A DNA stretch of 64,000 nucleotides from Sorangium aterium (GTDB lineage Bacteria > Myxococcota_A > Polyangia > Polyangiales > Polyangiaceae). Each line of letters opens with the position of its first letter. Positions within the stretch are counted from its first letter, which is position 1. A program made the position numbers and the translations under genes. Shown here piece by piece: positions 33,277 to 49,687 of this stretch. The DNA lies in contig NZ_JAQNDK010000001.1 of NCBI RefSeq assembly GCF_028368935.1, positions 1,054,001-1,118,000 of the forward strand, given 5' to 3'. The notes beneath the pieces were generated by a model. It worked only from the letters and a program-made list of their open reading frames with translations, searched no databases and was not told the origin of the DNA.

Positions 33277-34176
33277 TCACGAGCGCCGCGACCGGCGCCC
33301 GGCAGCGTCCCGCCGCGGCGCCAGCCGGCCTCGCCTCCGCCCGCGCGCCGCGAACGCAAGGGCGGCGAGCGCGCCGAGCCCCGCCGAGATCGGAGCCCCG
33401 CCCGCCGCGCCGCCGAAGCTGCACCCGCCGTCGTCCTCCGCTGCGCCAGATCCCTCGTCAACGCCAGCGCCCGTCGTTGCGCCCCCGCCCGTGCCCGCGC
33501 CAGCGCCCGTCGTTGCGCCCCCGCCCGTGCCCGCGCCCGCGCCCGTCGTCGCATCCCCGCCTGCGCCCACCGTGGCGCTGCTGCTCGCGCTCGTCGTTGC
33601 GCCCCCGCCCGCGCCCGTCGCGCCGCCACCGGCGCCGGCGCTGGCGCTGGCGCTGGCGCTGGCGCTGGAGCTTGCGGGGGCAGGGTCGGAGGACTTGAGC
33701 ACCAGATCCGCACAGCGGTAGTACAGGGTGGCCGGCCTCCTGTCCGTCATGACCTGGATGAGCTGAAGCGTGCAGTTGTCACACTCCACGTCCGGGAGCG
33801 TGACCTCCGCCGAATACGACCCTCCCTTCTTGTCGGCGATGCCGTCGAGCAGGCAGCCCTTGTCGACCCCCGGCTCGCAGAGATCGTTCTCGTTCGCCGG
33901 CTCCGGGAAATCGTCGAAGCCGTCGTCGTCGAACATGATCCGGAAATGCCCGGGGTGATCGATCGTCTCGTTCCACATCACCGTGATGGTCTCGCCCGGC
34001 TCGAACACGGTGACGGTCTCGCCCCGCGCATCGCCACGAGCACCGCAAGGCGACACCTTCTGCTGGTCGTCCGCGTGCCTCGGCGCGGGGGACGTGAGGT
34101 CGATGTGCGCGCTGCTCACGCCAGCGAACGACATCACGGCGGCCAGTACGAACGATCCCATCAGCATGCAACGCAT
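33277..34176 (-). CDS. Secreted polysaccharide-monooxygenase-like protein with MYXO-CTERM-like tail
   Basis: 299 residues. A signal peptide (MRCMLMGSFVLAAVMSFAGVSSA) precedes His24, so the mature N-terminus would be HIDLTSPAPR, as needed for the copper histidine brace of lytic polysaccharide monooxygenases. A second candidate ligand lies in WNETIDHPGHFRIMF. Cys pairs (CGARG, CEPGVDKGC, CDNC) suggest disulfides. The region resembles the SCE4755-type monooxygenase-like family known from Sorangium. A Gly/Ala/Thr/Ser-rich stalk (about 165-255) leads to GGCSFGG, a hydrophobic segment and RGRRRGR, a MYXO-CTERM-like surface-sorting tail. The start follows GAGGAGG. Oxidative polysaccharide cleavage is inferred, not shown. 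Confidence 0.82.
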   Translation of the reverse strand: MRCMLMGSFVLAAVMSFAGVSSAHIDLTSPAPRHADDQQKVSPCGARGDARGETVTVFEPGETITVMWNETIDHPGHFRIMFDDDGFDDFPEPANENDLCEPGVDKGCLLDGIADKKGGSYSAEVTLPDVECDNCTLQLIQVMTDRRPATLYYRCADLVLKSSDPAPASSSASASASASAGAGGGATGAGGGATTSASSSATVGAGGDATTGAGAGTGGGATTGAGAGTGGGATTGAGVDEGSGAAEDDGGCSFGGAAGGAPISAGLGALAALAFAARGRRRGRLAPRRDAAGRRSRRS

Positions 34177-36416: not shown

Positions 36417-37898
36417 TCAGCGCTTCTTCACACCGCCGCCGCGCTGGGCCTTCTCCGCCTCGTCGAGCCGCCGCCGCGCGTCGTCCAGGGCCGCCTGGCT
36501 GGCGTGGCCCTTCGGGAGCGCCTCGTAGCCGGCCACCTCCTCGCGCAGCGTGGCGATCTGCTCCGCGCCCCGCCCGAGCCGCTGCTGGATCTCCGCGCGG
36601 AGCTTCAGGTAGCGCAGCCGGCGCGGGCCATAGGCGCGCCCGACGGCGCGCTCCACCGCGGCGAGCGCCTCCGCCTCGCGGCCCATCGCGTGGAGCACCT
36701 GCGCGAGCCGCGCGGGCGGCTCGTACGACGCGGGCATCTGCGCCTCGCGCTGCGAGAGCATCGCGATCGCCTCCTCGCCGCGGCCGAGCGCGACATAGGC
36801 CATGGCGCGCCCGTAGTCGTACGCGGCGGCCGCCTCGGGCGTCTTCGCCTCCTTCGCGGCCCGCTCCAGCACGGCGAGCTTCGACTCGCTCGCAGCGCGG
36901 GCCCCGCCCGCATCGCCGAGCGCCTCGAGCCCCTCGGCGAGCAGGCCCCACGCGTCGGCCCTGTCGTCTGCGCTCGCGTCCGCGGGCGGGCTCGCGACGA
37001 TCGACCGCAGCCGGGCGACGGCCGCCTCGCGCGCGGCCCGCTGGGCCTTGCCGCCGGGGAGCGCGGCCGCGCAGGAGAGCAGGACGCTCGCGAAATCGGC
37101 GGGCAGCGCCGCGCCCTTCACCTCGCCGACGTGCGCGCTGCCGAGCTCCACGCACGCCGCAGCGTCCTTCTTGCGGTAGAGCGCCGCCAGGAGACCGAGC
37201 AGCGCCTCGCTGCGCCGCGGCCACGCCTCTCCGCCCCGGGCCAGGGCGCGCCGGTAGGCGGACACCGCCGCGGCGTGGTCACCGGCGCTGTGGGCCCGCT
37301 TCGCCTCGACGAGCAGGCGGTTCGGATCGTCCGCCGGCAGCGCCGACGCAGCCTTGGAATCCATCGCGAGCAGCGCGTCGCGGATCAGCTCGCGCAGCTC
37401 CTCGACCGAGGCGGCGCCCCGCCAGAGCCCGATCACCTCGCCGGCCGCCGGCTCGAGGACGAAGAACGTCGGCCACACCGTCACCTCGTGACGCTCCAGG
37501 AACGGCGCGCTCTCCGGTCGATCCGTGTCGACGTCCGCGAACACCACCCGATCGGCGAGCGGGCGCAGCGACGGATCCGTCAGCACGTAGTGCTTCATGC
37601 TCAGGCACGTGTGGCACCACGGCGCCCACGCATCGACGAACAGCGCCTTGCCCTCCGTCCGAGCCTTCTCGCGCGCGCGAGACACGTCGTCGTGGATGAA
37701 CTCGAGCGGCGGCCTCGCCGCGGTCGGCTCCGGCCTCTCGGCCGGCACCGGCCTCCCGGCGGGCTCCGCAGCCGCGGCCGCGGGCGCCGCGGCAGCCGGC
37801 GGCGCGGGCGCGCGCGGCGGCGGCGAGGCAGTACAGGCGGCGAGCGTGGAGAGCGCGGTCGCGGACAGGAGGACGGGGAGCGACGCCGTGGGACGCAC
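36417..37898 (-). CDS. Thioredoxin-fold lipoprotein with TPR-like repeats
   Basis: 493 residues from a GTG at 37898. That start gives a clean lipobox (ATALSTLAAC, Cys22), while the upstream frame is Arg-rich noise. After a Pro/Ala linker, residues about 65-185 form a thioredoxin-like domain with redox motif WAPWCHTC (C95, C98) and a cis-Pro loop VTVWPTFFV. The remainder (about 210-490) is Ala-rich helical repeats of TPR type (AVSAYRRALARGGEAWPRRSEAL, AMAYVALGRGEEAIAMLS). Likely an outer-membrane or periplasmic thiol-disulfide protein whose repeats bind a partner. It is downstream of the biosynthetic operon by 166 bp; a link is not established. Confidence 0.85.
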   Translation of the reverse strand: MRPTASLPVLLSATALSTLAACTASPPPRAPAPPAAAAPAAAAAEPAGRPVPAERPEPTAARPPLEFIHDDVSRAREKARTEGKALFVDAWAPWCHTCLSMKHYVLTDPSLRPLADRVVFADVDTDRPESAPFLERHEVTVWPTFFVLEPAAGEVIGLWRGAASVEELRELIRDALLAMDSKAASALPADDPNRLLVEAKRAHSAGDHAAAVSAYRRALARGGEAWPRRSEALLGLLAALYRKKDAAACVELGSAHVGEVKGAALPADFASVLLSCAAALPGGKAQRAAREAAVARLRSIVASPPADASADDRADAWGLLAEGLEALGDAGGARAASESKLAVLERAAKEAKTPEAAAAYDYGRAMAYVALGRGEEAIAMLSQREAQMPASYEPPARLAQVLHAMGREAEALAAVERAVGRAYGPRRLRYLKLRAEIQQRLGRGAEQIATLREEVAGYEALPKGHASQAALDDARRRLDEAEKAQRGGGVKKR

Positions 37899-38064
37899 GC
37901 CGCCATGGTAGCCCGAGCGCGGCGGCCACGACAGGGGTTCACCCGGACGGTCGCAGCCGCCAGCCCGCAGCCGGGTAGCAGCGCCGCGATCATCGCGACG
38001 CACGCGAGGCGCCGTCGAACGGCTCAACCAACAAGGAGCGTCGGCGTCATGAGCCGTGGCCATC

Positions 38065-39435
38065 CTATCTGGCGCCCTCGAGCGCTGCCGCGCCGTCCTC
38101 GCCTGCATGTGGCCGCGCGCCAGCCTCCCGGAGCGCCGACGGCTCGCTCCCGGTCTTGAAGCGCCGGTCGACCACGAGCGGGACCTTCCCCGTGCGCTCG
38201 CTCCGCAGCAGCGCGCCCTCCGCGAGGACGTCGACCGACACCAGGATCGAGCCCCGCTCGACGGACTTCCCGAGGACCGGCAGGCGTTCCAGGATCTTCC
38301 GCCGTATCTCTCTCTCGTCCAGGTGAGCGCCCTCGAGGCGGACCACCAGGTGGGCGTTGTGCTTGTAGCGATCGAGCACGATCTGCATGGCCGAGGGGCC
38401 CTCGTCGGAGAAGGCCTTGACGAGCTGGTGCACCCAGACCGTGGCGTCGCTCGAGAGCTTCAGGAACTCGCCCCCGCGGCCGAGGAACTCGATCTTTCGA
38501 TAGGGCAGCCCGCACGCGCATGCCTCGTCGAGGAAGCGGCCTCGATCGCCGATGTCGTAGCGGACCAGCGGATAGAGCGTCCGGTAGAGCGACGTGAGGA
38601 CGATGCGCCCCTCCTCGCCCTCCTCCACCGGCCTGCCGTCGTCGTCGACGATCTCGACGTGGTTGAAATCGTCGAGGGTGTGGTGCTCGTTCCCCGTGCA
38701 ATGCGAGCACTGGAAGCCGAACTGCAGGGCGTCGACCGACGCGATCACGGAGGCGATGCGCCTCACCCCCATGTGCGTCCTGAGCCAGTCGGCGTCCACC
38801 GGCGACAGCCCAGCGCCGCCGTAGAGGAGCAGCTCGAAGCCGAAGGACGGCTCGACCTCGTGGATCTTGCGCAGCTTGTGCATGAAGGAGAGCGGATTGG
38901 CGAACAGCACGTCGATGCGCATCCGGCGGGCGGCGTTGAGGAAGAAGGCCGGCTCGACGTGGGGGCCAAAGGGCAAGCTGCGCGCCCCGAGCTCGAGCAG
39001 CTCGTGCTCCAGCGTGATCAGCCCGCCATAGAGCTCGCCGATGGCGAGGCAATTGGCGACATTGTGCTCCTTGCGCACCCCCATCAGGCTCAGCATCCTG
39101 ACGCCGGAGCGGATCATCTCCCTGATCTCGGCGCCCGAGTAGATCGAGAACTTCGGCTCTCCGGAGGTCCCGCCCGTCTGGAGGACGACGCCGCCGTGCT
39201 CCTCGCCGCTCTTCAGGCGCTCGGGGGCCGTCATCATCGCGTCGCTGTAGGCCTTCTGCGTGGTGACCGGGGCCAGCGCCAGCGCGTCGAAGCCGGTCGC
39301 GTCCCGCGGGAGGATCCCCGCGTAGTATTCGGCGCGGCGCGCGGCGGTGAGCACCCGGTCCAGGCGTCCCACGACCTCCCTACGGAGCTCCCGTGCCGTG
39401 CGCGCCGCCGGCGCGCTCTCGTATCTCATGCTCAT
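38065..39435 (-). CDS. PaaK-like adenylate-forming ligase
   Basis: 456 residues, similar in length to phenylacetate-CoA ligase. It activates a carboxylic acid as an adenylate and then passes it to CoA or another acceptor. Visible motifs: P-loop-like QTGGTSGEPKF, aromatic/acid core LLLYGGAGLSPVDADWL, VRYDIGDRGRF, LGRGGEFLKLSS, and a C-terminal RTGKVPLVVDRRF with the likely catalytic Lys. CSHC and CAC segments may hold zinc. The ATG at 39435 follows GGAGG and overlaps the MFS gene stop by 4 nt (ATGA). It is the last gene of the six-gene operon. Substrate unknown. Confidence 0.87.
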   Translation of the reverse strand: MSMRYESAPAARTARELRREVVGRLDRVLTAARRAEYYAGILPRDATGFDALALAPVTTQKAYSDAMMTAPERLKSGEEHGGVVLQTGGTSGEPKFSIYSGAEIREMIRSGVRMLSLMGVRKEHNVANCLAIGELYGGLITLEHELLELGARSLPFGPHVEPAFFLNAARRMRIDVLFANPLSFMHKLRKIHEVEPSFGFELLLYGGAGLSPVDADWLRTHMGVRRIASVIASVDALQFGFQCSHCTGNEHHTLDDFNHVEIVDDDGRPVEEGEEGRIVLTSLYRTLYPLVRYDIGDRGRFLDEACACGLPYRKIEFLGRGGEFLKLSSDATVWVHQLVKAFSDEGPSAMQIVLDRYKHNAHLVVRLEGAHLDEREIRRKILERLPVLGKSVERGSILVSVDVLAEGALLRSERTGKVPLVVDRRFKTGSEPSALREAGARPHAGEDGAAALEGAR

Positions 39436-40613
39436 GACATTTCCTCCGAAAAGGCCTGACGGCCGACTGCTAGGGTGACGAGGCAGAACAGGGTGGCCAT
39501 GCCCGCGACGAAGCCGACGCCCCACGGCGCGCTCCAGCTCAGCATCTTGGTCGTGCCGCCGATGCCGATGACGGTGACGATGGACACCAGCAGAAAGCGG
39601 AAGCTCGATATGCGGCCCTTCTGCGCCGGCGGCATCCGCTGGTAGAGCTTCGACGTGAGCAGCGCGTTGGTGAAGCCGATCGCGGCGCCGAGGCCCAGGA
39701 ACGACGCGGTCGTCGCCGCCCTGCTCCGCGCGACCGTGATGACCGTGAGGAACAGGACCTGGAGCAGCTGAAACCCGACGAGGTGCCGCGGGCTCCCCCC
39801 CTTCCTCGCGAGCAGGAACGTGATGACCGCCCCGGCCGCGAACGCACCGTCCAGCCCCGAGAGCCACACCGCATCGCCGCCGAACCGGCTGTTGACGAGC
39901 GGCACGAGGATCAGGTTCAAGCATGCCATGACGGCGAGATCGCCTGTCGAGATCGCCACGTGGACGAAGAGCGACGGCGTGCGCCGCATCCCTTGCGCCA
40001 GCTCCTTCCAGTCCTTGATCACCTGCGAGACCGAGACGAGCGCGGCGCGCCGCGCCGGATCGCCGGAGACCTCCAGCCTCCAGAGGATCAGGCTCGTGGC
40101 CAGGAACAACCCAGCGTCGATGAGGAACACGACGGAGTAGCTGAGGCGCGCGAGCAGCACGCCGACGGCCCCGACGCCGAGCAGCTGACCGAGCTGGAGC
40201 AGCAGCATCGCGAGCGACGAGTAGCGGACCTGCTCCTCTTTCGCGACCACCCCCGGCACCAGCGCGAAGGCGGCGGTCTTGTAGAAATGGGAGCCTACCT
40301 TGAGCAGCGCCGAGAGGGCCACGACGGCGATCGTGGCCTCGTACCCTGGATGGAGCGCCAGCGCGGCCAGCATCACCATGATGAGCGCGCGGTTGATCCC
40401 GGCGGCCGAGGCGACGAGCTTGGGATTGAGCCTGTCGATGATCGGCCCCGCGTAGATCTGGCTCAGCACGCCGATCAGGTAGTCGAAGCCGAGCACGAAC
40501 GCGAAGGACGACACCGCTCCTGTCCGGTCGAACAGGAACTTGCCCAGCGCCAGCGTGTGCATTCCATCGGCGACGTTGGTGAGGAGCGTCGCGGTCAGGA
40601 GGCGCCGCTTCAA
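39432..40613 (-). CDS. MFS transporter, probable exporter of the pathway product
   Basis: 393 residues with about 12 hydrophobic segments and MFS-type loops (YAGPIIDRLNPKLVASAAGINRALI; LLARKGGSPRHLV). It starts at TTG (40613), well placed after GGAGG, with TTG overlapping the ATP-grasp stop (TTGA). This kind of MFS protein, related to multidrug or enterobactin exporters, usually exports the product and gives self-resistance. Coupled on both sides by 4-nt overlaps, so it is made in fixed ratio with the ATP-grasp and adenylating enzymes. Confidence 0.88.
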   Translation of the reverse strand: MKRRLLTATLLTNVADGMHTLALGKFLFDRTGAVSSFAFVLGFDYLIGVLSQIYAGPIIDRLNPKLVASAAGINRALIMVMLAALALHPGYEATIAVVALSALLKVGSHFYKTAAFALVPGVVAKEEQVRYSSLAMLLLQLGQLLGVGAVGVLLARLSYSVVFLIDAGLFLATSLILWRLEVSGDPARRAALVSVSQVIKDWKELAQGMRRTPSLFVHVAISTGDLAVMACLNLILVPLVNSRFGGDAVWLSGLDGAFAAGAVITFLLARKGGSPRHLVGFQLLQVLFLTVITVARSRAATTASFLGLGAAIGFTNALLTSKLYQRMPPAQKGRISSFRFLLVSIVTVIGIGGTTKMLSWSAPWGVGFVAGMATLFCLVTLAVGRQAFSEEMS

Positions 40614-41863
40614 CTGAGCACCTCCGTCGCGTGCGGGACGACCCGGATCTCCTCGCTGAGCCGCCGCACGACCTCGGCGACCTCGGCGCTGTCCCCGCCG
40701 CGCAGGATTGCCGCGGCGGGGACTTCCCAGTACTGGTGCGTCACCGATTTCTTCAGCCGGTCGTGGGGCTGCGCGACACGGAGCTTCACGACAGCGCCCG
40801 AGCCCGGGAGCCAGTCAGGCGTCGTCACACGGCACGAGGCCTCGGGAAAATGATGGCCCGGCACGACCAGCCAGCCGAACCACGGCCCCTCTGTCTTCGT
40901 GACCTCCCGGACGGGCCCCCCGGGCAACGGGCGACCGAGCCGCCGCGCCTGAGCCCGGATGAGGACGTCGATCTCCTCGGTCGGTATGTGGACGCCGGTC
41001 GAGGCCTCCGTCGCCGGGATGACATCGGCGCCGCCCGCGCGGTTGGCGACCTCCAGGAACACGAGCTCCTCCGGCCCCTCGATCACCTCGAGGTGGAAGG
41101 CGCCGTCGACGATGCCGACCGCGCGCAGGCAATCGAGGAAGAACGCCCGGTACTGGTCCGACATCCTGAACTGCGCCGAGCCGAGCGGCTTGCTGCCCCA
41201 CGCGTACTCGAGCGGCGTGTTGACGTAGCGGCTCGCCACGATGAGGCGCGGGGCGCCCCCATCCATCACGCCGTCGACATGGAGGATGGGCCCCTCGACG
41301 AACTCCTCGATCTCTCCGTCCGCGTAATACTCGTCGTTCTCCGGCCGGACGACGAAGGCGAGCGCCTCGCGCGGTGAGCCGAAGACGTGCACGCCGATGC
41401 TGCTGGCGCCCAGCGTCGGCTTCAGGATGGTGCGCCCCTCCCACGGCACGGACGCGACCGGGGCGCCCTTCTCCACCGTCCGGAGGTCGATGTTGCGCGG
41501 GCTCCTCAGGCCGGCCGCCGCCACGAGCCGCTTCATGAGGATCTTGTCCTTGAACTTCAGCAGCTCGTCGTAGCGAGGACCCGGGATCCCGAGGTGCTCG
41601 CGCACCTCGCCCGCCTCGTGCAGGTCGAACTCCGACAGGGCCATGACCATCTCGTAGCCGTCCGCCGCCGAGACGATCGCGTTGATCTCCACGTGACGCT
41701 TCGCCACGCCTGGGATCACGAGCCTCTCGCAGCGCAGACCGGCCGGCAGATCCGCGATGCGCGCCGCCGTACCCACGTACGTGACGTCGTGCGCGCCGTG
41801 ATCGAGCGCGCGATGATACTCCATTTTTCGATAAGGCACGGTGTGCATGATGAGGATTTTCAT
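40610..41863 (-). CDS. ATP-grasp carboxylate-amine ligase
   Basis: 417 residues. An N-terminal Rossmann-like preATP-grasp part (MKILIMHTVPYRKMEYHRALDHG) is followed by the ATP-grasp fold: FKDKILMKRLVAAAGLRSP, TILKPTLGASSIGVHVF (phosphate loop and Lys), EEFVEGPILHVDGVMDGG, and the Mg2+-binding end FHLEVIEGPEELVFLEVANRAGG. Such ligases join an acyl phosphate to an amine or other nucleophile, forming an amide bond. It sits between the FabH-like gene (12-bp gap) and the MFS gene (4-nt overlap) and probably couples the two halves of the product. Substrates are unknown. Confidence 0.9.
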   Translation of the reverse strand: MKILIMHTVPYRKMEYHRALDHGAHDVTYVGTAARIADLPAGLRCERLVIPGVAKRHVEINAIVSAADGYEMVMALSEFDLHEAGEVREHLGIPGPRYDELLKFKDKILMKRLVAAAGLRSPRNIDLRTVEKGAPVASVPWEGRTILKPTLGASSIGVHVFGSPREALAFVVRPENDEYYADGEIEEFVEGPILHVDGVMDGGAPRLIVASRYVNTPLEYAWGSKPLGSAQFRMSDQYRAFFLDCLRAVGIVDGAFHLEVIEGPEELVFLEVANRAGGADVIPATEASTGVHIPTEEIDVLIRAQARRLGRPLPGGPVREVTKTEGPWFGWLVVPGHHFPEASCRVTTPDWLPGSGAVVKLRVAQPHDRLKKSVTHQYWEVPAAAILRGGDSAEVAEVVRRLSEEIRVVPHATEVLS

Positions 41864-41875
41864 ACCTGGGACCTT

Positions 41876-42829
41876 TCAGACCTGAATGAGGCTCGCTCCC
41901 CAAGAGAAGCCCACGCCGCTCGACACGACGACGACCCGCTGACCGGGACGGAGCCTCTTCGTCCTGAGGCCGTCGGCGAGCGCGAGGGCCGTGTCCGTGG
42001 AGCCGAGGTGACCGTAGTCGCGGAAGCTAAGATACGACTGCGACTCGCTGAGGCCGAAGCGCGCGAGGACCTCGCGCAGCACCCGCTGATCGCCCTGGTT
42101 CATGAACAGATAATCGATGTCCCGCGCCCGCAGGTTGGCCTCGTCCAGGACCTGCCCAACCAGCCTGGTGATGTAGTGCAGATACTGATCATGAAGGCTC
42201 ACCTCCGCCGTGCACGGCTCCGTGACGATCGTGGACGCGCCCCGGGGGAGCTTGTACAGATCCACGTACGTGCCGTCCGTCGCGAACGCGCTCGACAGGA
42301 CGTGGAGCGACGGCGCGTACCGGTCGCACAGCAGCGCCGAGGCGGCGTCGGCGAAGTTGAACAGGCTCTTCGACCCGGGATCCGTGTGATCGACGTAGCT
42401 CGACAGCGTGTCGGCGCAGATCAGGAGCGCCCGCCGGTAGGAAGAGGTCGCCAGCATCAGCCCCTTGATCACGTGGAGCGCCGCGTTCAGCGAGTTGCAG
42501 CCGTTGCTCAGCTCGAAGCAGAACGCGCCCTTCGCGCCGATGGCCGCCTGGATCTTGCCTGCCGGTGACCAGAGCGCGTGGTCGGTGAGGCCGGTCGAGG
42601 CGTAGACCAGGAGATCGATGCTGTCCGATGCGAAGGGGTGGCGCGCCCTCAGATCGTCGATCGCCTCCAGCGCGAGCTCGACGCACCGCCGCCCTTGCGC
42701 CACCGGCTTGGAGGCGAGCTGCATCTTGTCCGTGAAGAACTCGATCGGCACCCCGGACGCCGCGCTGATCGAAGAGGCGCTCATGCGCGCCGGCGGGACG
42801 CAGAGCCCTAGTTCAACGATGCCAAACAT
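41876..42829 (-). CDS. Divergent FabH-like (KAS III) condensing/acyltransferase enzyme
   Basis: 317 residues, the same length as E. coli FabH. The nucleophile Cys111 is in FELSNGCNSLNAAL. The usual His of HQAN is Asn here (FMNQGDQ, N244), and the usual Asn of the GNTSAAS block is His (DYGHLGSTD, H274), so the two partner residues look exchanged. C-terminal VVVSSGVGFSWGASLI is typical of the fold. Such variants may transfer an acyl group or condense unusual substrates. The gene is in the operon between the dioxygenase (16-bp gap) and ATP-grasp (12-bp gap) genes, preceded by GCAGGAAG. It is not a housekeeping FabH: no fatty-acid genes are near. Confidence 0.87.
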   Translation of the reverse strand: MFGIVELGLCVPPARMSASSISAASGVPIEFFTDKMQLASKPVAQGRRCVELALEAIDDLRARHPFASDSIDLLVYASTGLTDHALWSPAGKIQAAIGAKGAFCFELSNGCNSLNAALHVIKGLMLATSSYRRALLICADTLSSYVDHTDPGSKSLFNFADAASALLCDRYAPSLHVLSSAFATDGTYVDLYKLPRGASTIVTEPCTAEVSLHDQYLHYITRLVGQVLDEANLRARDIDYLFMNQGDQRVLREVLARFGLSESQSYLSFRDYGHLGSTDTALALADGLRTKRLRPGQRVVVVSSGVGFSWGASLIQV

Positions 42830-42845
42830 GCTTCCTGCTCCGCGG

Positions 42846-43685
42846 TCAGCGCGTCACGCCGGACTCGATGGACAGGCGGTACATCGTGCGCGGGATCTCG
42901 GGGTCGGAGGCCATCGCGGCGTGGATCAGCGACGGGTTGTCCCAGATCAAGAGGTCGCCGACACGCCATTGGTGGCGGTAGATGGCGTGCTCGCGCGTCG
43001 CGTGCGCGTGCAGCTCCTCGAGCATCTGCTGGCTCTGCTCCCACCCCATCCCCTCGAAGCTCAGGGTGTATCCGTCGCTGATATAGAGCGCGGGCCGCCC
43101 GGTGAGCGGGTGCTTGCGGACGACGGGGTGGGTGACATCGGGGATGGTGAGCCGCAAGCGATCGTCGATCTCCCGGAGCGACTGACCCACGTCCTGGGCC
43201 GTGACCTTGTATCGCTTGCGGATCGTGTGGACGGCCGTGCGTCCCTCCAGCGTCGCGCGGAGCTCCGGCGAGAGCTCGTCGAGGGCGAGGTACATGGAGG
43301 CGAACAGCGTGTCCCCCCCCGCCGGCGGCACCTTGAGGGAGTAGAGGAGCGTCGTGTTCGCGGGGTTCGCGATGTACGAAGAGTCCGAGTGCCAGAAGTT
43401 GCCCACGCGCGCGACGCCGAGCGGCTTCCCGTCGACCTTCTCGTTCGACGTGACGAGGATCTCGTCGAACTCCGGGTGGCGGTAGTTCGAGAGGAGGAAC
43501 GGCAAGATCGGCCCCATGCGCCGGCCCGTGGCGACGAGCTCGGCGGGCATCAGCTCCTGATCGCGGAGCAGGAGGAGCTGGTGCCGGAGCAGGAGGTCGA
43601 GCAGCGCCCCCCCGTTGCGTCTCACGTCGAAGCCGACCAGCTCGGCGCCGAAGTACTTTGAAAGAGGCCTCGATTCATAGCTCAT
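42846..43685 (-). CDS. TauD/TfdA-family Fe(II)/2-oxoglutarate dioxygenase
   Basis: 279 residues. The metal triad is present: H99 and D101 (GNFWHSDSSY), H255 (NPSLIHAAM); R270 (TMYRLSI) binds 2-oxoglutarate. The overall sequence follows TauD (PLSKYFGAELVGFDV start, ANTTLLYSLKVPPAGGDTLFASMYLALDEL). It should hydroxylate or desaturate a pathway intermediate in the cytoplasm. The ATG at 43685 follows GGAG; 20 more in-frame codons upstream include a Phe run encoded by the 15-A tract and are rejected. Second gene of the operon, 139 bp after the oxoamine synthase gene. Confidence 0.92.
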   Translation of the reverse strand: MSYESRPLSKYFGAELVGFDVRRNGGALLDLLLRHQLLLLRDQELMPAELVATGRRMGPILPFLLSNYRHPEFDEILVTSNEKVDGKPLGVARVGNFWHSDSSYIANPANTTLLYSLKVPPAGGDTLFASMYLALDELSPELRATLEGRTAVHTIRKRYKVTAQDVGQSLREIDDRLRLTIPDVTHPVVRKHPLTGRPALYISDGYTLSFEGMGWEQSQQMLEELHAHATREHAIYRHQWRVGDLLIWDNPSLIHAAMASDPEIPRTMYRLSIESGVTR

Positions 43686-43716
43686 ACGCAGTTCTCCAAT
43701 GGCCAAGCAGGCCCTC

Positions 43717-43731
43717 AAAAAAAAAAAAAAA
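43717..43731. repeat. 15-nt A homopolymer inside the operon
   Basis: Fifteen consecutive A on the plus strand (T on the coding strand) sit in the 139-bp gap between the oxoamine synthase stop (43825) and the dioxygenase ATG (43685). Read in the operon direction it is a U15 tract following GC-rich sequence, so it could partly terminate transcription. It could also be a slippage-prone tract that changes spacing. Confidence 0.75.
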
Positions 43732-43824
43732 TAATGACTCGACATACCCGCGCGAGATGCTCGGGGAATGCCGCGCTCCCCGCGTCCTTCGCGTCGAAAT
43801 GCGCCGCGGATCTGCTCAGTGGCT

Positions 43825-45060
43825 TCAGCTGGTCGCGGCGATGATGTGCGCCAGCGCGATGACGAAAGCGCGAATCTCGCGCTCTGTGTGCGACGAGGAC
43901 ACGATCACGCGGAGCCGCTCCTGCCCGCGCGGCACGCTCGGGAAATTGATGGGTTGCACGTAGAAGCCGTGCTCTCTGAGCAAGGTATCCGAGATGCTCT
44001 TGCACCTGAAGGAGTCGCCGATCATCACCGGCACGATGTGGCTCGGGCTGTCCATGACCGGGAGACCGTGGCGTCGGAGCTCGTCCTTGAGCAGGCTCAC
44101 GTTGGCGAAGAGCCGCTCCCGCTCGACGTTGCTCTGCTTCAGGTGCCGCACCGACGCCAGCGCGGCGGCCAGGACGAGCGGCGGGAGCGAGGTCGTGAAG
44201 ATGAAGCCCGGCGCCATGAGCCGGACGGCGTCGACGACGAAGCGGTCCCCCACCACGTAGCCGCCGGTCGCCCCGTGGGCCTTGCCGAAGCCGCCCTGGA
44301 ACATGTCGATCTCGTGTGCCAGGCCCAGGGAGTCCGCGACGCCGGCCCCGGTACGACCGTAGACCCCGACGCCGTGGGTCTCGTCGAGGAAGATCATGGC
44401 GTTGTGACGGTGCTTGAGGCGACACACCTCTTCGAGCAGCCCGAAATGGCCGTCCATCGAGTAGATCGACTCGAGGACGATCAGCTTCGGCGCGTCCGCC
44501 GGCAAGGCCTTGAGCTTGGCCTCGAGATCCGAGACCGAGTTGTGCTCGAAGATGACCCTCTTGAGCCCGCTCTTGCGGATGCCTTCGATGAGCGACCGGT
44601 GGTTCTTGCTGTCCGAGAGCACGGTGATCTCGGGCATCAGCTTGCCGATGACGCCCAGCGTCTCCTCGTTCGCCACGTAGCCGCTGTTGAAGAGCAGAGC
44701 GGACTCCTTGCCGTGCAAGGCTGCGAGCTCGGCTTCCAGCTCCACGTGGTAGTGGGAGGTGCCGGAGATGTTGCGCGAGCCGCCGGAGCCGAGGCCTTGC
44801 TCGTCGAGCACGTTCCGGGCTGCAGCGACCACGCGCTCGTGGTTGCTCATCCCGAGGTAGTCGTTGCTGCAGAACACGCTCGCCTTGTGCTGCGCGCCGC
44901 GCCTGTCGAAATAGGCGTTCGGGTAGTCGTCGGCGATGCGGCGGAGCGGCAGGAACGTCCGGTAGCTGCCGTCCACCATGGCCTTGGTGACAAAATCCGC
45001 TGCTGCCTTCACGAGGACGTTGCGTTGATTGCGAGAACTGACGGGAGTCGTCTGCGTCAC
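43825..45060 (-). CDS. Alpha-oxoamine synthase, ALA-synthase-like
   Basis: 411 residues, PLP-dependent. It should condense an amino acid with an acyl-CoA with loss of CO2. PLP Lys260 is in GGFGKAHGATGG, the ring-binding Asp226 in FLDETHG, and His154 in SDSKNHRSLIEG. It is close to bacterial 5-aminolevulinate synthases (SYRTFLPLRRI, CSNDYLGMSNH, SRNISGTSHYHVELEAE, APGFIFTTSLPP, VQPINFPSVPRGQERLR). It departs from them where ALA synthases have TRN (here SRN) and the RFTPxP end (here RVIVSSS). GTG start after AAGGAG. It heads the operon, so a biosynthetic role is favoured over heme supply. Confidence 0.9.
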   Translation of the reverse strand: MTQTTPVSSRNQRNVLVKAAADFVTKAMVDGSYRTFLPLRRIADDYPNAYFDRRGAQHKASVFCSNDYLGMSNHERVVAAARNVLDEQGLGSGGSRNISGTSHYHVELEAELAALHGKESALLFNSGYVANEETLGVIGKLMPEITVLSDSKNHRSLIEGIRKSGLKRVIFEHNSVSDLEAKLKALPADAPKLIVLESIYSMDGHFGLLEEVCRLKHRHNAMIFLDETHGVGVYGRTGAGVADSLGLAHEIDMFQGGFGKAHGATGGYVVGDRFVVDAVRLMAPGFIFTTSLPPLVLAAALASVRHLKQSNVERERLFANVSLLKDELRRHGLPVMDSPSHIVPVMIGDSFRCKSISDTLLREHGFYVQPINFPSVPRGQERLRVIVSSSHTEREIRAFVIALAHIIAATS

Positions 45061-45739
45061 GTTCGATATCTCCTTCTATGTACCGATGGGTGTCCGCCGG
45101 TCTGCGGCGCACACACGAAACCTCAGCCATGTGGACATCCGCCATGAACCGCGCCCAGGCCGTGATCCGCGGCGCAGTCGATGAAGCAATCCGGATTGGG
45201 CCTCACCTCGGCGCCGAAGAGGCGCCGGTGCTTCTGGCGGCCCCGGTCGACGGCCTGGCTCCGCTCGTCGCTCGATCCAAGAGACGTTGATACGCCTGAA
45301 GAACATTCTTTCGATGGGATCGAGCCCTGCATGGCGACAGGAACGCCGCGGCCGAGTGCAACCCACGGTCCATCCGGCCATCGCCCCTCTCCGGCCCCGG
45401 ATCGCGCTGGCGCGGCCCGGGCGGCGGTCGAGGCCATCAGCGGGCTTCGGACGAGCGCTTGCGCGACTGCGCAACACGGGTGAGCAAGGGTCGGGAGGCG
45501 GACCTGCGAAGAGATCGCTTGTCCTGGCTCGACGTCGGCCGGACGATCCCGGGAGGCTCGCCGGCACGGGGCTCGCGGCCGCGACCGACAGGTCCCCCCG
45601 CCGGGCGAGCAGCGCCGGTTCGCCGGCCGGAGCCGGAAGGCGGGCGAGCCGGAGCCGGACGTCGCGCGCGAGCCGCCTGGCCAGCTCGCGCCCAGATTGC
45701 GCTGCCGGTCGCGCGCAAAGCTGGTACAGTCCGGCCGCG
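45061..45739. other. 679-bp intergenic region upstream of the biosynthetic operon
   Basis: This lies between the divergent oxoamine synthase gene and a plus-strand Cys-motif gene, so both promoters must be here. Open frames on both strands are mutually inconsistent and Arg/Pro-rich. A short inverted repeat AAGAA-CA-TTCTT lies at 45299-45310, in slightly AT-richer sequence, and could mark a promoter or operator. I see no regulator gene or RNA gene. Confidence 0.45.
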
Positions 45740-46420
45740 GTGAACGATTACGCGGGCCGGTGCGGAAGCTGCGCGGCATTTACCAGGGTGCACGAGGATC
45801 CAGCGCGCGGCCGCGTCGGCGAGTGCGCCCTCGAGGTGTACCCGCCGCCGATCAAGGCGACAGCGACGTGCGCCCGCTACCGCGCCAAGGGCGCGCCGCC
45901 GCCGCCGCCGCCACCCCGGGCGGCGGGCCAGCCGCGCGGCACCGGCGTCAGGCCGCGGGCGCCCGAGCGCGCCCCGTCGCCGGAGCGTCGGCCGAGCGCA
46001 GCGCCGCAGAGCGCGGCGCCGCAGCCCTTCCGTTCGCCGCTGCCAAGGGAGATCGACATCGACATGGATATCGACGAGTTCCGCCGTGTGCTGCGCGAGG
46101 TGCTGTCCGAGGAGCTCGGCGTCGGCCGCGCGGAGCTGGGCGGCCGCTGGGAAGGCGGGGAGATCGTGCTCCGGCCGGGGAAGGAGGGCACGGCCGAGAA
46201 GCGCATCCCGCTCGACGTGTTCTTCCACAAGATCGTGATGCTCCGCGACAAGCTGCGCGTGCTGGAGCAGAAGATCAACGCGCACGAGGGGCTGAGCGAC
46301 GCGGAGAAGGTCCAGCTCCAGGCGTACATCACGGGCTGTTACGGGACGCTCACGACGTTCAACGTGCTCTTCGCGCGCCGGGAAGACGGGTTCGCCGGCA
46401 GCGGCCGAGACAGCGACTGA
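45740..46420 (+). CDS. Hypothetical protein with N-terminal Cys motif
   Basis: 226 residues from a GTG at 45740 (MNDYAGRCGSCAAF). The first 45 residues have CGSC, GECAL and ATCARY, which could bind zinc or an Fe-S centre. A Pro/Ala/Arg-rich linker follows (about 50-105), then a helical C-terminal domain (DIDEFRRVLREVLSEELGVGRAELG, VFFHKIVMLRDKLRVLEQKINAHEGLSDAEKVQLQAYITGCYGTLT, in separate blocks). No catalytic motif. The longer open frame to 45287 is Arg-rich shadow sequence. Unknown function; it is divergent from the biosynthetic operon but not obviously linked. Confidence 0.72.
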   Translation: MNDYAGRCGSCAAFTRVHEDPARGRVGECALEVYPPPIKATATCARYRAKGAPPPPPPPRAAGQPRGTGVRPRAPERAPSPERRPSAAPQSAAPQPFRSPLPREIDIDMDIDEFRRVLREVLSEELGVGRAELGGRWEGGEIVLRPGKEGTAEKRIPLDVFFHKIVMLRDKLRVLEQKINAHEGLSDAEKVQLQAYITGCYGTLTTFNVLFARREDGFAGSGRDSD

Positions 46421-46541
46421 TACCCCATCTGAGCTGCGCCGAGAGCGCCACGGCTCTCGATCTCGCGCGCGCGATGGGGGTCTGATCGCTCGGCCCTCAC
46501 CTTCGGCCTGCCGGGCGGGGGCGCGGCGCTATACTTGCCGC

Positions 46542-47294
46542 GTGTTCCGTTCCGATCGAGACGCCCTCGCGGACAAGCTCGACGACGTGCAGGCCGAGAA
46601 CGAGCGCCTGCGCCGGCAGAACGAGGCCATGCGTCACGCCCTGCTGGCGCAGCGCGTCGGCGGACAGCCTGTTGCCTCGAACACGTATCGCGGCGGCGTG
46701 GCCGGGCTGGGCGCCGGCGAGCGGGTCGCGCTCGCGCGGCATCGGCTCGAGGCGTTTCCGGTGTGGGCCACGGCGCTGCTGCACGTCGTGACGTTCGGGA
46801 TCGTGTCGTTCGTCCGCTTCAACGCGATGCACGCCCAGCTGCCCCAGGCCGAGCGCGACGATCCCTCCGTGGGGAAGGCCATCGGCCTGCACTTCGCCCC
46901 GTACTTCAACTACTACTGGATCTTCTGGAACGGCCTCCGGCTCTGTGATCGCGTGAACCTGCAGTGCCGCCTGCGGGGCATGCCCGACGGCGTGCCGCGG
47001 GGCCTGGTCATCGCGGCGTGTGTGGCGAGCGTCATCCCGTACATCCAGCTCCTGGCCGGCCCGATCACCTGGCTGTTCGTCGCCATCGCCATGCAGCGCA
47101 CCGTGAACCGGATCGTCGAGCTCGACGCGCGGACCACGAGCGAGCGCGTGGAGCCGGTCGACGTGGGCGCTGGCGTGTTCGGCGTGCGGTTCCCTGCGGT
47201 TCAGGCGCTGCCGCAGCCGGACGACGTCGCCATCCAGGCGGAGGCGGAGGCGGAGGCCGCGGCGGCGATCGCCGAGCAGCGGCAGCGCCGCTAG
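46542..47294 (+). CDS. DUF4234-like membrane protein with coiled coil
   Basis: 250 residues from a GTG at 46542. Residues about 5-35 form a coiled coil (DALADKLDDVQAENERLRRQNEAMRHALL). The central part has hydrophobic segments (FPVWATALLHVVTFGIVSFVRF, FAPYFNYYWIFWNGLRL, LVIAACVASVIPYIQLLAGPITWLFVAIAMQ). The first of these, with its TFGI...FVRF pattern, resembles DUF4234. The C-terminus is acidic and Ala-rich (AEAEAEAAAAIAEQ). Likely an inner-membrane protein with unknown function. Confidence 0.75.
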   Translation: MFRSDRDALADKLDDVQAENERLRRQNEAMRHALLAQRVGGQPVASNTYRGGVAGLGAGERVALARHRLEAFPVWATALLHVVTFGIVSFVRFNAMHAQLPQAERDDPSVGKAIGLHFAPYFNYYWIFWNGLRLCDRVNLQCRLRGMPDGVPRGLVIAACVASVIPYIQLLAGPITWLFVAIAMQRTVNRIVELDARTTSERVEPVDVGAGVFGVRFPAVQALPQPDDVAIQAEAEAEAAAAIAEQRQRR

Positions 47295-47427
47295 AGCGCC
47301 GCTCGGCGTGATCGGCAGTCGGTCGCATCCTCTGGCTTCTTCGTACCCATCCAGCGAAGCGCCGTCATCGTCGCCATGAGGCCCGCAGGCCGCGGGGTGA
47401 GCGCGACCTCTTCGACGCATGGATTAG

Positions 47428-47450
47428 GTGGTTGATACGGTATCACCCAC
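47428..47450. promoter_or_regulatory. 23-bp palindrome upstream of the OPT transporter gene
   Basis: Half-sites GTGGTTGATAC and GTATCACCCAC flank a single G; 10 of 11 positions pair. It lies in the 347-bp gap 47295-47641, about 190 bp before the transporter ATG. A dimeric repressor or activator operator is the simplest reading. Nothing else is recognised in this gap. Confidence 0.55.
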
Positions 47451-47641
47451 CCGGCTTGCAGGGAGAGCCTCGTGACACGGGGCCAGCAATTCCGTCGCAG
47501 CGTGGATTCGCCGGGTTCGGCCGCGGGTCCGCGGGTGACGGTTCGAGCGGGGATCGGCGAGATCTGCGCCGCCAGCCCTCGCGGAAGAGATGCACGGCGC
47601 GTCGCCCACCATGGTACAAGGTGCGAGGAGGTCGCCGCGCA

Positions 47642-49687
47642 ATGACCATCAAACAGCTCACGCCAGAGCAGGTTCACACCATGTCGCTCGAAGAGAAGGA
47701 CGCATGGTGGCTGAAGAACGTCTACCGCGGCGACATGCCCCAGCTCACGTGGCGCTCGGCCATCACGGGCATGCTCCTCGGCGCGTTCCTGTCGCTCACG
47801 AACCTGTACATCGGCGCGCGCACAGGCTGGTCGCTCGGCGTCGGGATCACGAGCGTGATCCTGGCCTTCGGGCTCTTCAAGGTGCTCTCCAGGCTCGGCC
47901 TCGGCAGCGACATGACCGTGCTCGAGAACAACGCGATGCAGTCCATCGCGACGTCGGCCGGCTACATGAACGCGCCGCTCTTCACGAGCCTCGCGGCCTA
48001 TTCGATGGTCACGACGACGATCATCCCCATGGGCCGGGCGATGATCTGGATGTTCGTCCTCGCCATCCTCGGCGTGCTCTTCGCCTTCCCGATGAAGAAG
48101 CGCTTCATCAACGACGAGCAGCAGCCCTTCCCCGAGGGGATGGCCGCCGGCGTCGTCATGGACGCGCTGCACGAGAGCGACGAGAAGGAGGGCCTCTTCA
48201 AGGCGAAGCTCCTCCTCGGCGGCGGCCTCCTGAGCGCCGCGCTCGAGCTCCTCCGCGACGACAAGGTGATGCGCGCGCTCTTCGCGCTAAGGAACATCCC
48301 GCATTACTACGACGAATTCCTCTATGGCGGGCGCTTCGCCGATCTGCTCAAGCGCTGGGGCATCTCGCCGGCCATCCGCGGCACCCCCCTGAACGAGCTC
48401 ACCATCCGGTTCGACACGAGCATCATCTTCGTCGCCACGGGCGGCCTGATGGGCATCCGGACCGGCGTGTCGCTCCTCCTCGGCGGGATCCTCAACTACT
48501 GGATCCTCGCGCCGATCCTGATCCAGCGCGGGATCATCCTGCCGAAGAACGGGCATTTCGGGTTCGGGGCGATCACCCTCTGGGCGCTGTGGGGCGGCGT
48601 CGCGTGCATGACAACGTCGTCTCTCTACGCCTTCTTCTCCAAGCCGAAGGTGATCCTCGACGCGTTCAAGGGCCTCACCAAGAAGGGCGGAGCGACCGAC
48701 GTGCTCGCGGACATCGAGCTTCCGGTGAAGCTGTCGATCATCGGCATACCCGTCGTCGGCGCGGTGATCGTGGTGCTCGGGCAGCTCTGGTTCGGGATCT
48801 CCTGGTGGCTCGGGGCGCTCGCGATCCCGCTCGTCTTCATCTTCTCGCTCATCGCGGTCAACTCGACGGCCATCACGGCGATCACCCCGACCGGGGCGCT
48901 CGGCAAGCTGACGCAGCTCACCTACGGCGCCCTCGCGCCGAAGAACATCACGACGAACCTGATGACGGCCGGGGTCACCGCCGAGGTCGCGAGCAACACC
49001 GCGAACCTGCTGATGGATATCAAGCCGGGCTACATGCTCGGCGGCAAGCCCCGCCACCAGGCGATGGGGCACGTGCTCGGGACGGTCTCGGGGCTCGTGC
49101 TCTCGGTGCCCATCTGGTACCTCGTGCTGATCCAGGGCGACATCGGCCGCTACGGGACGGAGCGGCTTCCGGTCCCGAGCGCGCTCACGTGGAAGGCCGT
49201 CGCCGAGGTGCTGATGAAGGGGCTCGATTTCCTCCACCCGACCGCCAAGTCCGCGGTGGTGGTCGGGGCGATCGTCGGGCTCCTCGTCGAGATCACGAGG
49301 CAGGTCACGAAGAACCGATTCCCCCTCTCCGCGGTCGCGCTGGGGCTCGCGTTCATCCTCAACTTCACCGATATCTGGTCGATGTTCCTCGGCTCGTTCC
49401 TCTTCTGGCTGCTCGATCGGCGCGCCGCGCTCTGGCGCAAGAAGCGCGAGCAGGAGACGCGGCTCAGCGAGACGGCGCCCGGCGGGCGAGCGGACGCGCC
49501 GCCCGCGCGGCCCTGGTACGCGCTCGCCGCGGAGAACACCGAGGCCATCTGCGCGGGTGTGATCGCCGGAGGCTCGTTGATGGGCATCGGCCTCAGCGTG
49601 CTCGGCGTGCTTGTGCTGCCCGACGTGCTGGAAGCGGCGAGCTTCACCAAGGCGCTCGGGCAGATCCTCGATTTCCTCCCGAAGTGA
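47642..49687 (+). CDS. OPT-family oligopeptide/metal-chelate transporter
   Basis: 681 residues with about 14-16 hydrophobic segments. Family features: MLLGAFLSLTNLYIGARTGW near the start, VLENNAMQSIATSAGYM, RFINDEQQPFPEGMAAGVVMDAL, and VTAEVASNTANLLMDIKPGYMLGGKPRHQ (several adjacent blocks). OPT proteins import oligopeptides or metal-siderophore complexes with protons across the inner membrane. The ATG at 47642 (MTIKQLTPEQ) is chosen; the open frame reaches 47432 with Arg-rich shadow sequence. Single gene with a palindromic operator candidate upstream and a hairpin after the stop. Confidence 0.93.
   Translation: MTIKQLTPEQVHTMSLEEKDAWWLKNVYRGDMPQLTWRSAITGMLLGAFLSLTNLYIGARTGWSLGVGITSVILAFGLFKVLSRLGLGSDMTVLENNAMQSIATSAGYMNAPLFTSLAAYSMVTTTIIPMGRAMIWMFVLAILGVLFAFPMKKRFINDEQQPFPEGMAAGVVMDALHESDEKEGLFKAKLLLGGGLLSAALELLRDDKVMRALFALRNIPHYYDEFLYGGRFADLLKRWGISPAIRGTPLNELTIRFDTSIIFVATGGLMGIRTGVSLLLGGILNYWILAPILIQRGIILPKNGHFGFGAITLWALWGGVACMTTSSLYAFFSKPKVILDAFKGLTKKGGATDVLADIELPVKLSIIGIPVVGAVIVVLGQLWFGISWWLGALAIPLVFIFSLIAVNSTAITAITPTGALGKLTQLTYGALAPKNITTNLMTAGVTAEVASNTANLLMDIKPGYMLGGKPRHQAMGHVLGTVSGLVLSVPIWYLVLIQGDIGRYGTERLPVPSALTWKAVAEVLMKGLDFLHPTAKSAVVVGAIVGLLVEITRQVTKNRFPLSAVALGLAFILNFTDIWSMFLGSFLFWLLDRRAALWRKKREQETRLSETAPGGRADAPPARPWYALAAENTEAICAGVIAGGSLMGIGLSVLGVLVLPDVLEAASFTKALGQILDFLPK

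Follow-up and report, generated by a model that had tools for sequence, protein, structure and literature searches.

Two kinds of secondary metabolism built on a 5-aminolevulinate synthase (ALAS) are the closest described relatives of the locus reported here, a six-gene operon in a 64-kb stretch of DNA from Sorangium aterium (the whole stretch is referred to as the window; the source genome comprises 13.47 Mb in 7 contigs). In alaremycin-type clusters, an ALAS with the changes T83S and T365S is accompanied by an MFS exporter, a GNAT protein and an oxidoreductase. The operon has in common with these clusters the exporter and the ALAS with both serines, whereas its other genes encode a TauD-type oxygenase, a KASIII-like enzyme, an ATP-grasp ligase and a PaaK-like adenylating enzyme. 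In the C5N pathways, a non-heme ALAS, also with T83S and T365S, is encoded in a locus with an adenylating enzyme, which is again similar to the operon. The C5N systems differ by the changes I149L/V and F363A and by a pair formed by an amide synthase and a 5-aminolevulinate (ALA) ligase, where the operon has TauD, KASIII and ATP-grasp. Passages of the literature on the cyclizing enzymes list T83S, I149L/V, D231T and T365S as their markers and call T83S crucial for cyclization by the asukamycin enzyme (PMC4525017). The dynaplanin and ketomemicin pathways resemble the operon in being small and in using a stand-alone α-oxoamine synthase that depends on pyridoxal phosphate, but, in the passages on dynaplanin, phenylacetyl and arginine are needed and the synthase is said to be related to C-acetyltransferases (PMC9239090), whereas the operon enzyme is a true ALAS by model score.

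The comparisons described below suggest that the operon is a patchily distributed six-gene cassette, making a small metabolite from an ALA-type aminoketone without a polyketide synthase (PKS) or a nonribosomal peptide synthetase (NRPS), a reading to which we give about an even chance. A described cluster with this gene set was not found in the open-licence PMC literature, in agreement with an earlier reading of the window made from the letters and ORF translations only (the sequence-only reading), to which the pathway looked undescribed.

Organization and conservation of the operon

The six open reading frames (ORFs) are all on the minus strand, with the transcription order ALAS, TauD, KASIII, ATP-grasp, MFS, PaaK. 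The features of the locus are as follows.

43825..45060, minus strand: 5-aminolevulinate synthase variant (ALAS), 411 residues, GTG start; TIGR01821 517 bits; T83S, T365S, Gly-Phe 245-246
43686..43824, minus strand: gap between ALAS and TauD; contains ~110 nt, 15-T run included, that S. cellulosum So ce26 lacks (pairwise alignment)
42846..43685, minus strand: TauD-type Fe/2-oxoglutarate oxygenase, 279 residues; PF02668 205 bits
41876..42829, minus strand: KASIII-like enzyme, active site altered, 317 residues; PF08541 and PF08545; Cys111 kept, His244 to Asn, Asn274 to His
40610..41863, minus strand: ATP-grasp ligase, L-amino-acid-ligase-like, 417 residues; 9-row profile matching 3vot, 4wd3 and BacD
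39432..40613, minus strand: predicted MFS exporter, 393 residues, TTG start; PF07690 74 bits
38065..39435, minus strand: PaaK-like adenylating enzyme, 456 residues; PaaK-type models and 5-row profile
37926..45714, no strand: presence/absence segment containing the operon, approximate limits; homology breakpoints versus the operon-free Sorangium genomes G003 and G004

By coordinate, neighbouring genes overlap by 4 nt in two places (ATGA and TTGA) and are otherwise 12, 16 and 139 nt apart. Coordinates and sequence both agree with the sequence-only reading, which had placed six genes on one strand over this span with exactly these overlaps and gaps. The length of its 139-bp break stands, with the refinement that ~110 nt of it, with the 15-T run, are lacking in So ce26, where the gap is 28 nt. 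For the TauD protein, an ATG at 43745 is an alternative upstream start that would give 299 residues. There are no Rfam matches in the region 37000-48000.

The same six genes are found in the same order in Sorangium cellulosum So ce26, at 82-88% identity. The ratios of nonsynonymous to synonymous substitution rates (dN/dS) between the window and So ce26 are all below 1 (ALAS 0.25, TauD 0.33, KASIII 0.38, ATP-grasp 0.32, MFS 0.35, PaaK 0.60). Outside the phylum, plasmid plas2 of Burkholderia stagnalis YJ-2 carries consecutively hemA, TauD, KASIII, ATP-grasp, a PaaK of 662 residues and MFS, the identities with the window proteins being 50% (ALAS), 39% (TauD), 34% (KASIII), 36% (ATP-grasp) and 30% (PaaK). 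The MFS protein is not counted as conserved, because its match is weak and its gene comes last in this plasmid locus. Five enzymes are retained together in two phyla, and the recurrence of gene set and order in So ce26, and of the five enzymes in another phylum, shows that the grouping is beyond chance. The genes are grouped in relatives, not scattered, so that the condition under which the sequence-only reading would have been refuted does not hold. In line with its remark that no PKS or NRPS module is needed, such genes are absent from the six, and its view of a single small-molecule operon is supported by the conservation of the unit. The string "aminolevulin" does not occur in the main text of the report on B. 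stagnalis YJ-2 (PMC12195442). The B. stagnalis PaaK protein (L117:14151-16139) has a tandem repeat of ~35 residues in its middle part and is extended at the N terminus by a part without family assignment.

The operon enzyme is a dedicated ALAS

The family assignments of the sequence-only reading hold for all six proteins, and its label "ALAS-like" can be sharpened: with 517.2 bits, the enzyme itself passes the curated cut-off of the ALAS model TIGR01821 (338.55), and it stays under the cut-offs of the models for bioF, Kbl and serine palmitoyltransferase. The glutamate route to ALA is encoded elsewhere in the same genome by HemA (401 bits, cut-off 210) and HemL (598 bits, cut-off 527), so that the operon enzyme is a dedicated ALAS; judged by gene content, it would be unneeded for heme synthesis.

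When numbered according to the structure of the Rhodobacter capsulatus enzyme (2bwn), the window ALAS retains R21, N54, N85, S137, H142, the catalytic lysine K248 and R374, and has a serine at positions 83 and 365 (T83S and T365S; Ser95 and Ser375 of the window protein). All three ALASs of the operon type (those of the window, of So ce26 and of B. stagnalis) have Ser83, Ser365 and Gly-Phe at 245-246, which are absent from the 82 further ALASs compared (79 loci from the contig scan and 3 from the phylum draw). Ser83 and Ser365 are also present in two ALASs encoded beside AMP-ligases on Streptomyces plasmids, which have in addition Leu149 and Ala363, and in a Rahnella plasmid ALAS, from an MFS-hemA-GNAT-oxidoreductase locus, which has Ile149. 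Gly-Phe 245-246 is missing from the Streptomyces enzymes, which have Thr-Leu there, as well as from the Rahnella enzyme, and is not seen in any other compared row. Gln370 was dropped as a residue private to the operon ALASs, since it is shared by one Streptomyces row. In the Rahnella aquatilis plasmid (L124:6826-10789), the MFS, hemA, GNAT and oxidoreductase genes are consecutive and lie between transposase genes; we regard this locus as a candidate alaremycin-type cluster. Because the two serines also occur in this locus of another kind, they mark, in this sample, the ALASs of secondary metabolism generally and not cyclization.

The three operon ALASs form one clade (support 100/98, 33-row tree), which is preserved at 99/96 when the 12 signature columns are removed (26 rows), the B. 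stagnalis row, like the Rahnella row, being a long branch. An ALAS at E<=1e-95 is present in 4 of the 377 genomes drawn from the phylum, and the three besides the window genome carry Thr83 and Thr365. In the contig scan, among the best 80 of 180 confirmed relatives, identity is 88% for the So ce26 protein and drops to 54% for the one after it; as the scan relied on six peptide patterns, all taken exactly from a single protein, distant operons may escape it. Staphylococcus capitis plasmids of just 9.3 kb (NZ_CP103052.1 and NZ_CP102090.1) also bear an ALAS-type hemA.

The partner enzymes

The KASIII-like protein matches the ACP_syn_III models PF08541 and PF08545 (80 and 52 bits). Its Cys111 is kept at the position of FabH Cys112, but the position of FabH His244 is an asparagine (NQGD) and that of Asn274 a histidine (GHLG) in all three operon copies, so that the canonical Cys-His-Asn active site of FabH is not present. 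The ordinary FabH-like condensation that the sequence-only reading had considered is unsupported because of this change, and a plain FabH is rejected; acyl transfer or an altered condensation would be likelier. With the window protein as query, a KASIII at E<=1e-40 is found in 1 of the 377 phylum genomes, its own, and with a 3-row profile at E<=1e-35 in 6; So ce26 did not turn up in these draws. The five additional proteins are 27-29% identical and have the motifs LHMKRS and GH; other operon genes were not found beside them within the 0.3-1.5 kb flanks examined. A single one of 72,556 plasmid records matches at E<=1e-25, and the B. stagnalis query retrieves the same record at E<=1e-15.

The TauD protein (PF02668, 205 bits) has 6l86, ScoE and TauD as nearest solved relatives. 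Its segments FWHSDSSY and WDNPSLIH align with 6l86 and with the B. stagnalis protein and contain the His-X-Asp...His pattern, which we take to be the iron site. The ATP-grasp protein has no Pfam match at E<=0.001 and stays with 15.5 bits below the cut-off of PF13535 (27), and the single-sequence match to 4wd3 is 25 bits. A 9-row profile matches the L-amino-acid ligases 3vot (79 bits), 4wd3 (70) and BacD (47). This similarity to L-amino-acid ligases (BL00235, BacD) extends over most of the fold, but bacilysin-type genes are not present in the operon. The PaaK protein scores 27.3 bits with PF00501, slightly below the cut-off of 29.9, and is matched by several PaaK models; its 5-row profile matches solved phenylacetate-CoA ligases, the PaaK-like ligase 6siw and AjiA1. 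Near its C-terminal end, K417, presumably the adenylation lysine, is invariant in the 5 rows. The MFS protein matches PF07690 (MFS_1, 74 bits). The structures predicted from the window and So ce26 rows have a mean predicted local distance difference test score (pLDDT) of 29.8 for ATP-grasp and 45.2 for KASIII.

Patchy presence at one chromosomal site

When the ATP-grasp protein is searched against 97 relatives, 56 match at E<=0.001, with identities of 87% for So ce26 and 40% for genome G024, and among the 20 best loci the other operon genes lie within 1.5 kb solely in the window genome and in So ce26. By this protein, the operon is present in 2 of 6 Sorangium genomes, G002-G005 being without a match (for G002 and G005, in fragmented assemblies). 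In G003 and G004, both flanks of the operon are preserved, and tblastn at E<=0.01 finds not one of its six genes. Left-flank homology ends at 37935 (G003) and 37925 (G004) and resumes on the right at 45688 and 45715, respectively, the operon being replaced by other sequence of 1.6 kb (G003) and 0.8 kb (G004). In So ce26, the right flank next to the operon is the same; on the other side, a segment of ~9 kb (L142:1794-10792) with a different sequence, encoding a sigma-54 activator and a caspase-domain ORF, separates the operon from the left flank. No tRNA is found in the 64-kb window. The longest words shared by the edges of the segment (10 nt direct, 9 nt inverted) are at chance level, as 87 of 200 shuffles reach it. 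Gain of the operon may be likelier than loss, because it is rare in the phylum and has a plasmid-borne relative. Metabolites can be compared directly between Sorangium strains that carry the operon at this site and strains that lack it there. Within the right flank, positions 46434-47581 of the window interrupt the alignment with So ce26, G003 and G004.

Proposed pathway and alternatives

An aminoketone core of the product, as in the sequence-only reading, is likely, and it can be specified further: ALA itself or a closely homologous compound is the probable core, because the residues of the succinyl-CoA site are kept except for the two Thr-to-Ser changes. We infer each chemical step, the step order and the product from the enzyme families. 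The ALAS would condense succinyl-CoA with glycine, or possibly, because of T83S, with another small amino acid, and the TauD oxygenase may then oxidise the aminoketone acid or a later intermediate. The PaaK protein would adenylate a carboxylic acid and pass it on as a thioester or directly to an amine or hydroxyl group, with the KASIII-like protein as a putative acyltransferase or nonstandard condensing enzyme. The ATP-grasp ligase would couple a carboxylate to an amine, probably that of an amino acid, and the MFS protein would export the product. The product, for which the sequence-only reading had put forward an acylated or amidated aminoketone, would likely be an acylated and/or amino-acid-capped ALA analogue, and possibly an antimetabolite. 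As a whole, the observations of that reading are confirmed, and its interpretation is partly supported.

The presence of T83S and T365S, the former being called crucial for cyclization in the passages on the asukamycin enzyme (PMC4525017), is also what would be expected of a C5N pathway, in which a cyclizing ALAS would generate 2-amino-3-hydroxycyclopent-2-enone, the PaaK protein would be the ALA-CoA ligase and the ATP-grasp or KASIII protein would replace the amide synthase. An adenylating enzyme and a ligase are indeed encoded in the operon, and a clade of the operon ALASs with the Streptomyces pair is not rejected by the approximately unbiased (AU) test (p 0.22, 26-row set). However, the three operon ALASs keep Ile149 in place of the cyclizing marker I149L/V, and they do not share F363A, whereas the two compared Streptomyces C5N-type enzymes carry Leu149 and Ala363. 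Residues 231-233 are Asp-Ser-Leu in the window ALAS and Glu-Arg-Asp in 2bwn, with no Thr at or near position 231, but the published D231T numbering does not fit position 231 of 2bwn, and the Streptomyces rows are also without Thr. The serines are, moreover, present in the Rahnella locus, and the AMP-ligase pair of the C5N kind is absent: the one PaaK-like enzyme of the operon reaches 27.3 bits with PF00501, versus 164 and 325 bits in the two Streptomyces loci, and the C5N gene triad is not seen. The operon is not filed with the C5N clusters, as I149L/V and the partner ligases are lacking, and we consider this explanation unlikely.

It is also doubtful that the operon makes an alaremycin-like ALA mimic, for which the ALAS would use serine or another amino acid and the decorated ALA analogue would block heme synthesis. 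The Rahnella ALAS has the same T83S, T365S and Ile149, and the AU test does not reject its placement with the operon ALASs (p 0.221, 26-row set, the Rahnella row being a long branch), but it does not share Gly-Phe 245-246, and family-model searches find neither a GNAT nor an oxidoreductase gene among the six operon genes, which include five different enzyme families. Filing with alaremycin is rejected, since a GNAT gene beside the ALAS is not found. That the ALAS is a housekeeping or back-up heme enzyme, next to genes of an unrelated pathway, agrees with its passing of the TIGR01821 cut-off. This is very improbable, given the HemA and HemL pair, the recurrence of its four enzyme neighbours, order included, in another phylum, the absence of T83S and T365S from all 82 other ALASs compared and the absence of the gene from sister genomes, and the plain heme reading is rejected.

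For the proposed cassette, several observations weigh on the other side. The operon is found in three genomes or records only (the window genome, So ce26 and B. stagnalis), PaaK is under the weakest constraint of the six (dN/dS 0.60), the B. stagnalis MFS protein matches that of the window weakly (24% over 142 residues), and the B. stagnalis PaaK has an extra N-terminal part and precedes MFS, whereas MFS comes before PaaK in the window. We propose tentatively, and with somewhat less than even confidence, that the cassette represents, next to C5N and alaremycin, a third type of secondary metabolism founded on an ALAS, in which an ALA-type warhead would be made, oxidised and capped by an L-amino-acid-ligase-like ATP-grasp enzyme, PaaK and a KASIII with swapped His and Asn, and which, being common to myxobacteria and Burkholderia, would give a new class of exported antimetabolite. 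If true, compounds derived from ALA can be reached by one more route, the active site of the KASIII is unusual, and the enzymes form a discrete set open to assay. Cluster finders that rely on PKS or NRPS modules may fail to highlight the operon, which contains neither.

Related loci and minor observations

Two Streptomyces plasmids, from NBC_01006 and NBC_01343, also have adjacent genes for ATP-grasp, PaaK and MFS, but with a different front end; the NBC_01006 proteins are 43, 33 and 26% identical to those of the window, respectively. These uncharacterised loci (L118:3706-14726 and L125:1-11543) combine ATP-grasp, PaaK and MFS with an oxygenase and with methylaspartate mutase, aspartate kinase and semialdehyde dehydrogenase. 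They differ from the operon by a PaaK with an extra N-terminal part and by the absence of ALAS and KASIII genes in the stretch viewed, and they apparently belong to a separate pathway. Since the three genes occur here with another front end, the comparison suggests that the cassette may have two parts, with ALAS-TauD-KASIII as the front end and the genes for ligation and export as an end that can be separated from it.

A different recurring locus has three consecutive ATP-grasp genes and is found in genome G024 (L027:6096-13385), in B. stagnalis plas2 (L116:4901-11245), which thus bears both this locus and the ALAS operon, and in an S. cyaneofuscatus plasmid (L119:7264-11263). In G024 and B. 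stagnalis, it also encodes haem-oxygenase-like iron enzymes and a pyridoxal decarboxylase. Elsewhere in the window, the protein predicted at positions 33277-34176 shows matches to BIM1-like and LPMO_10.

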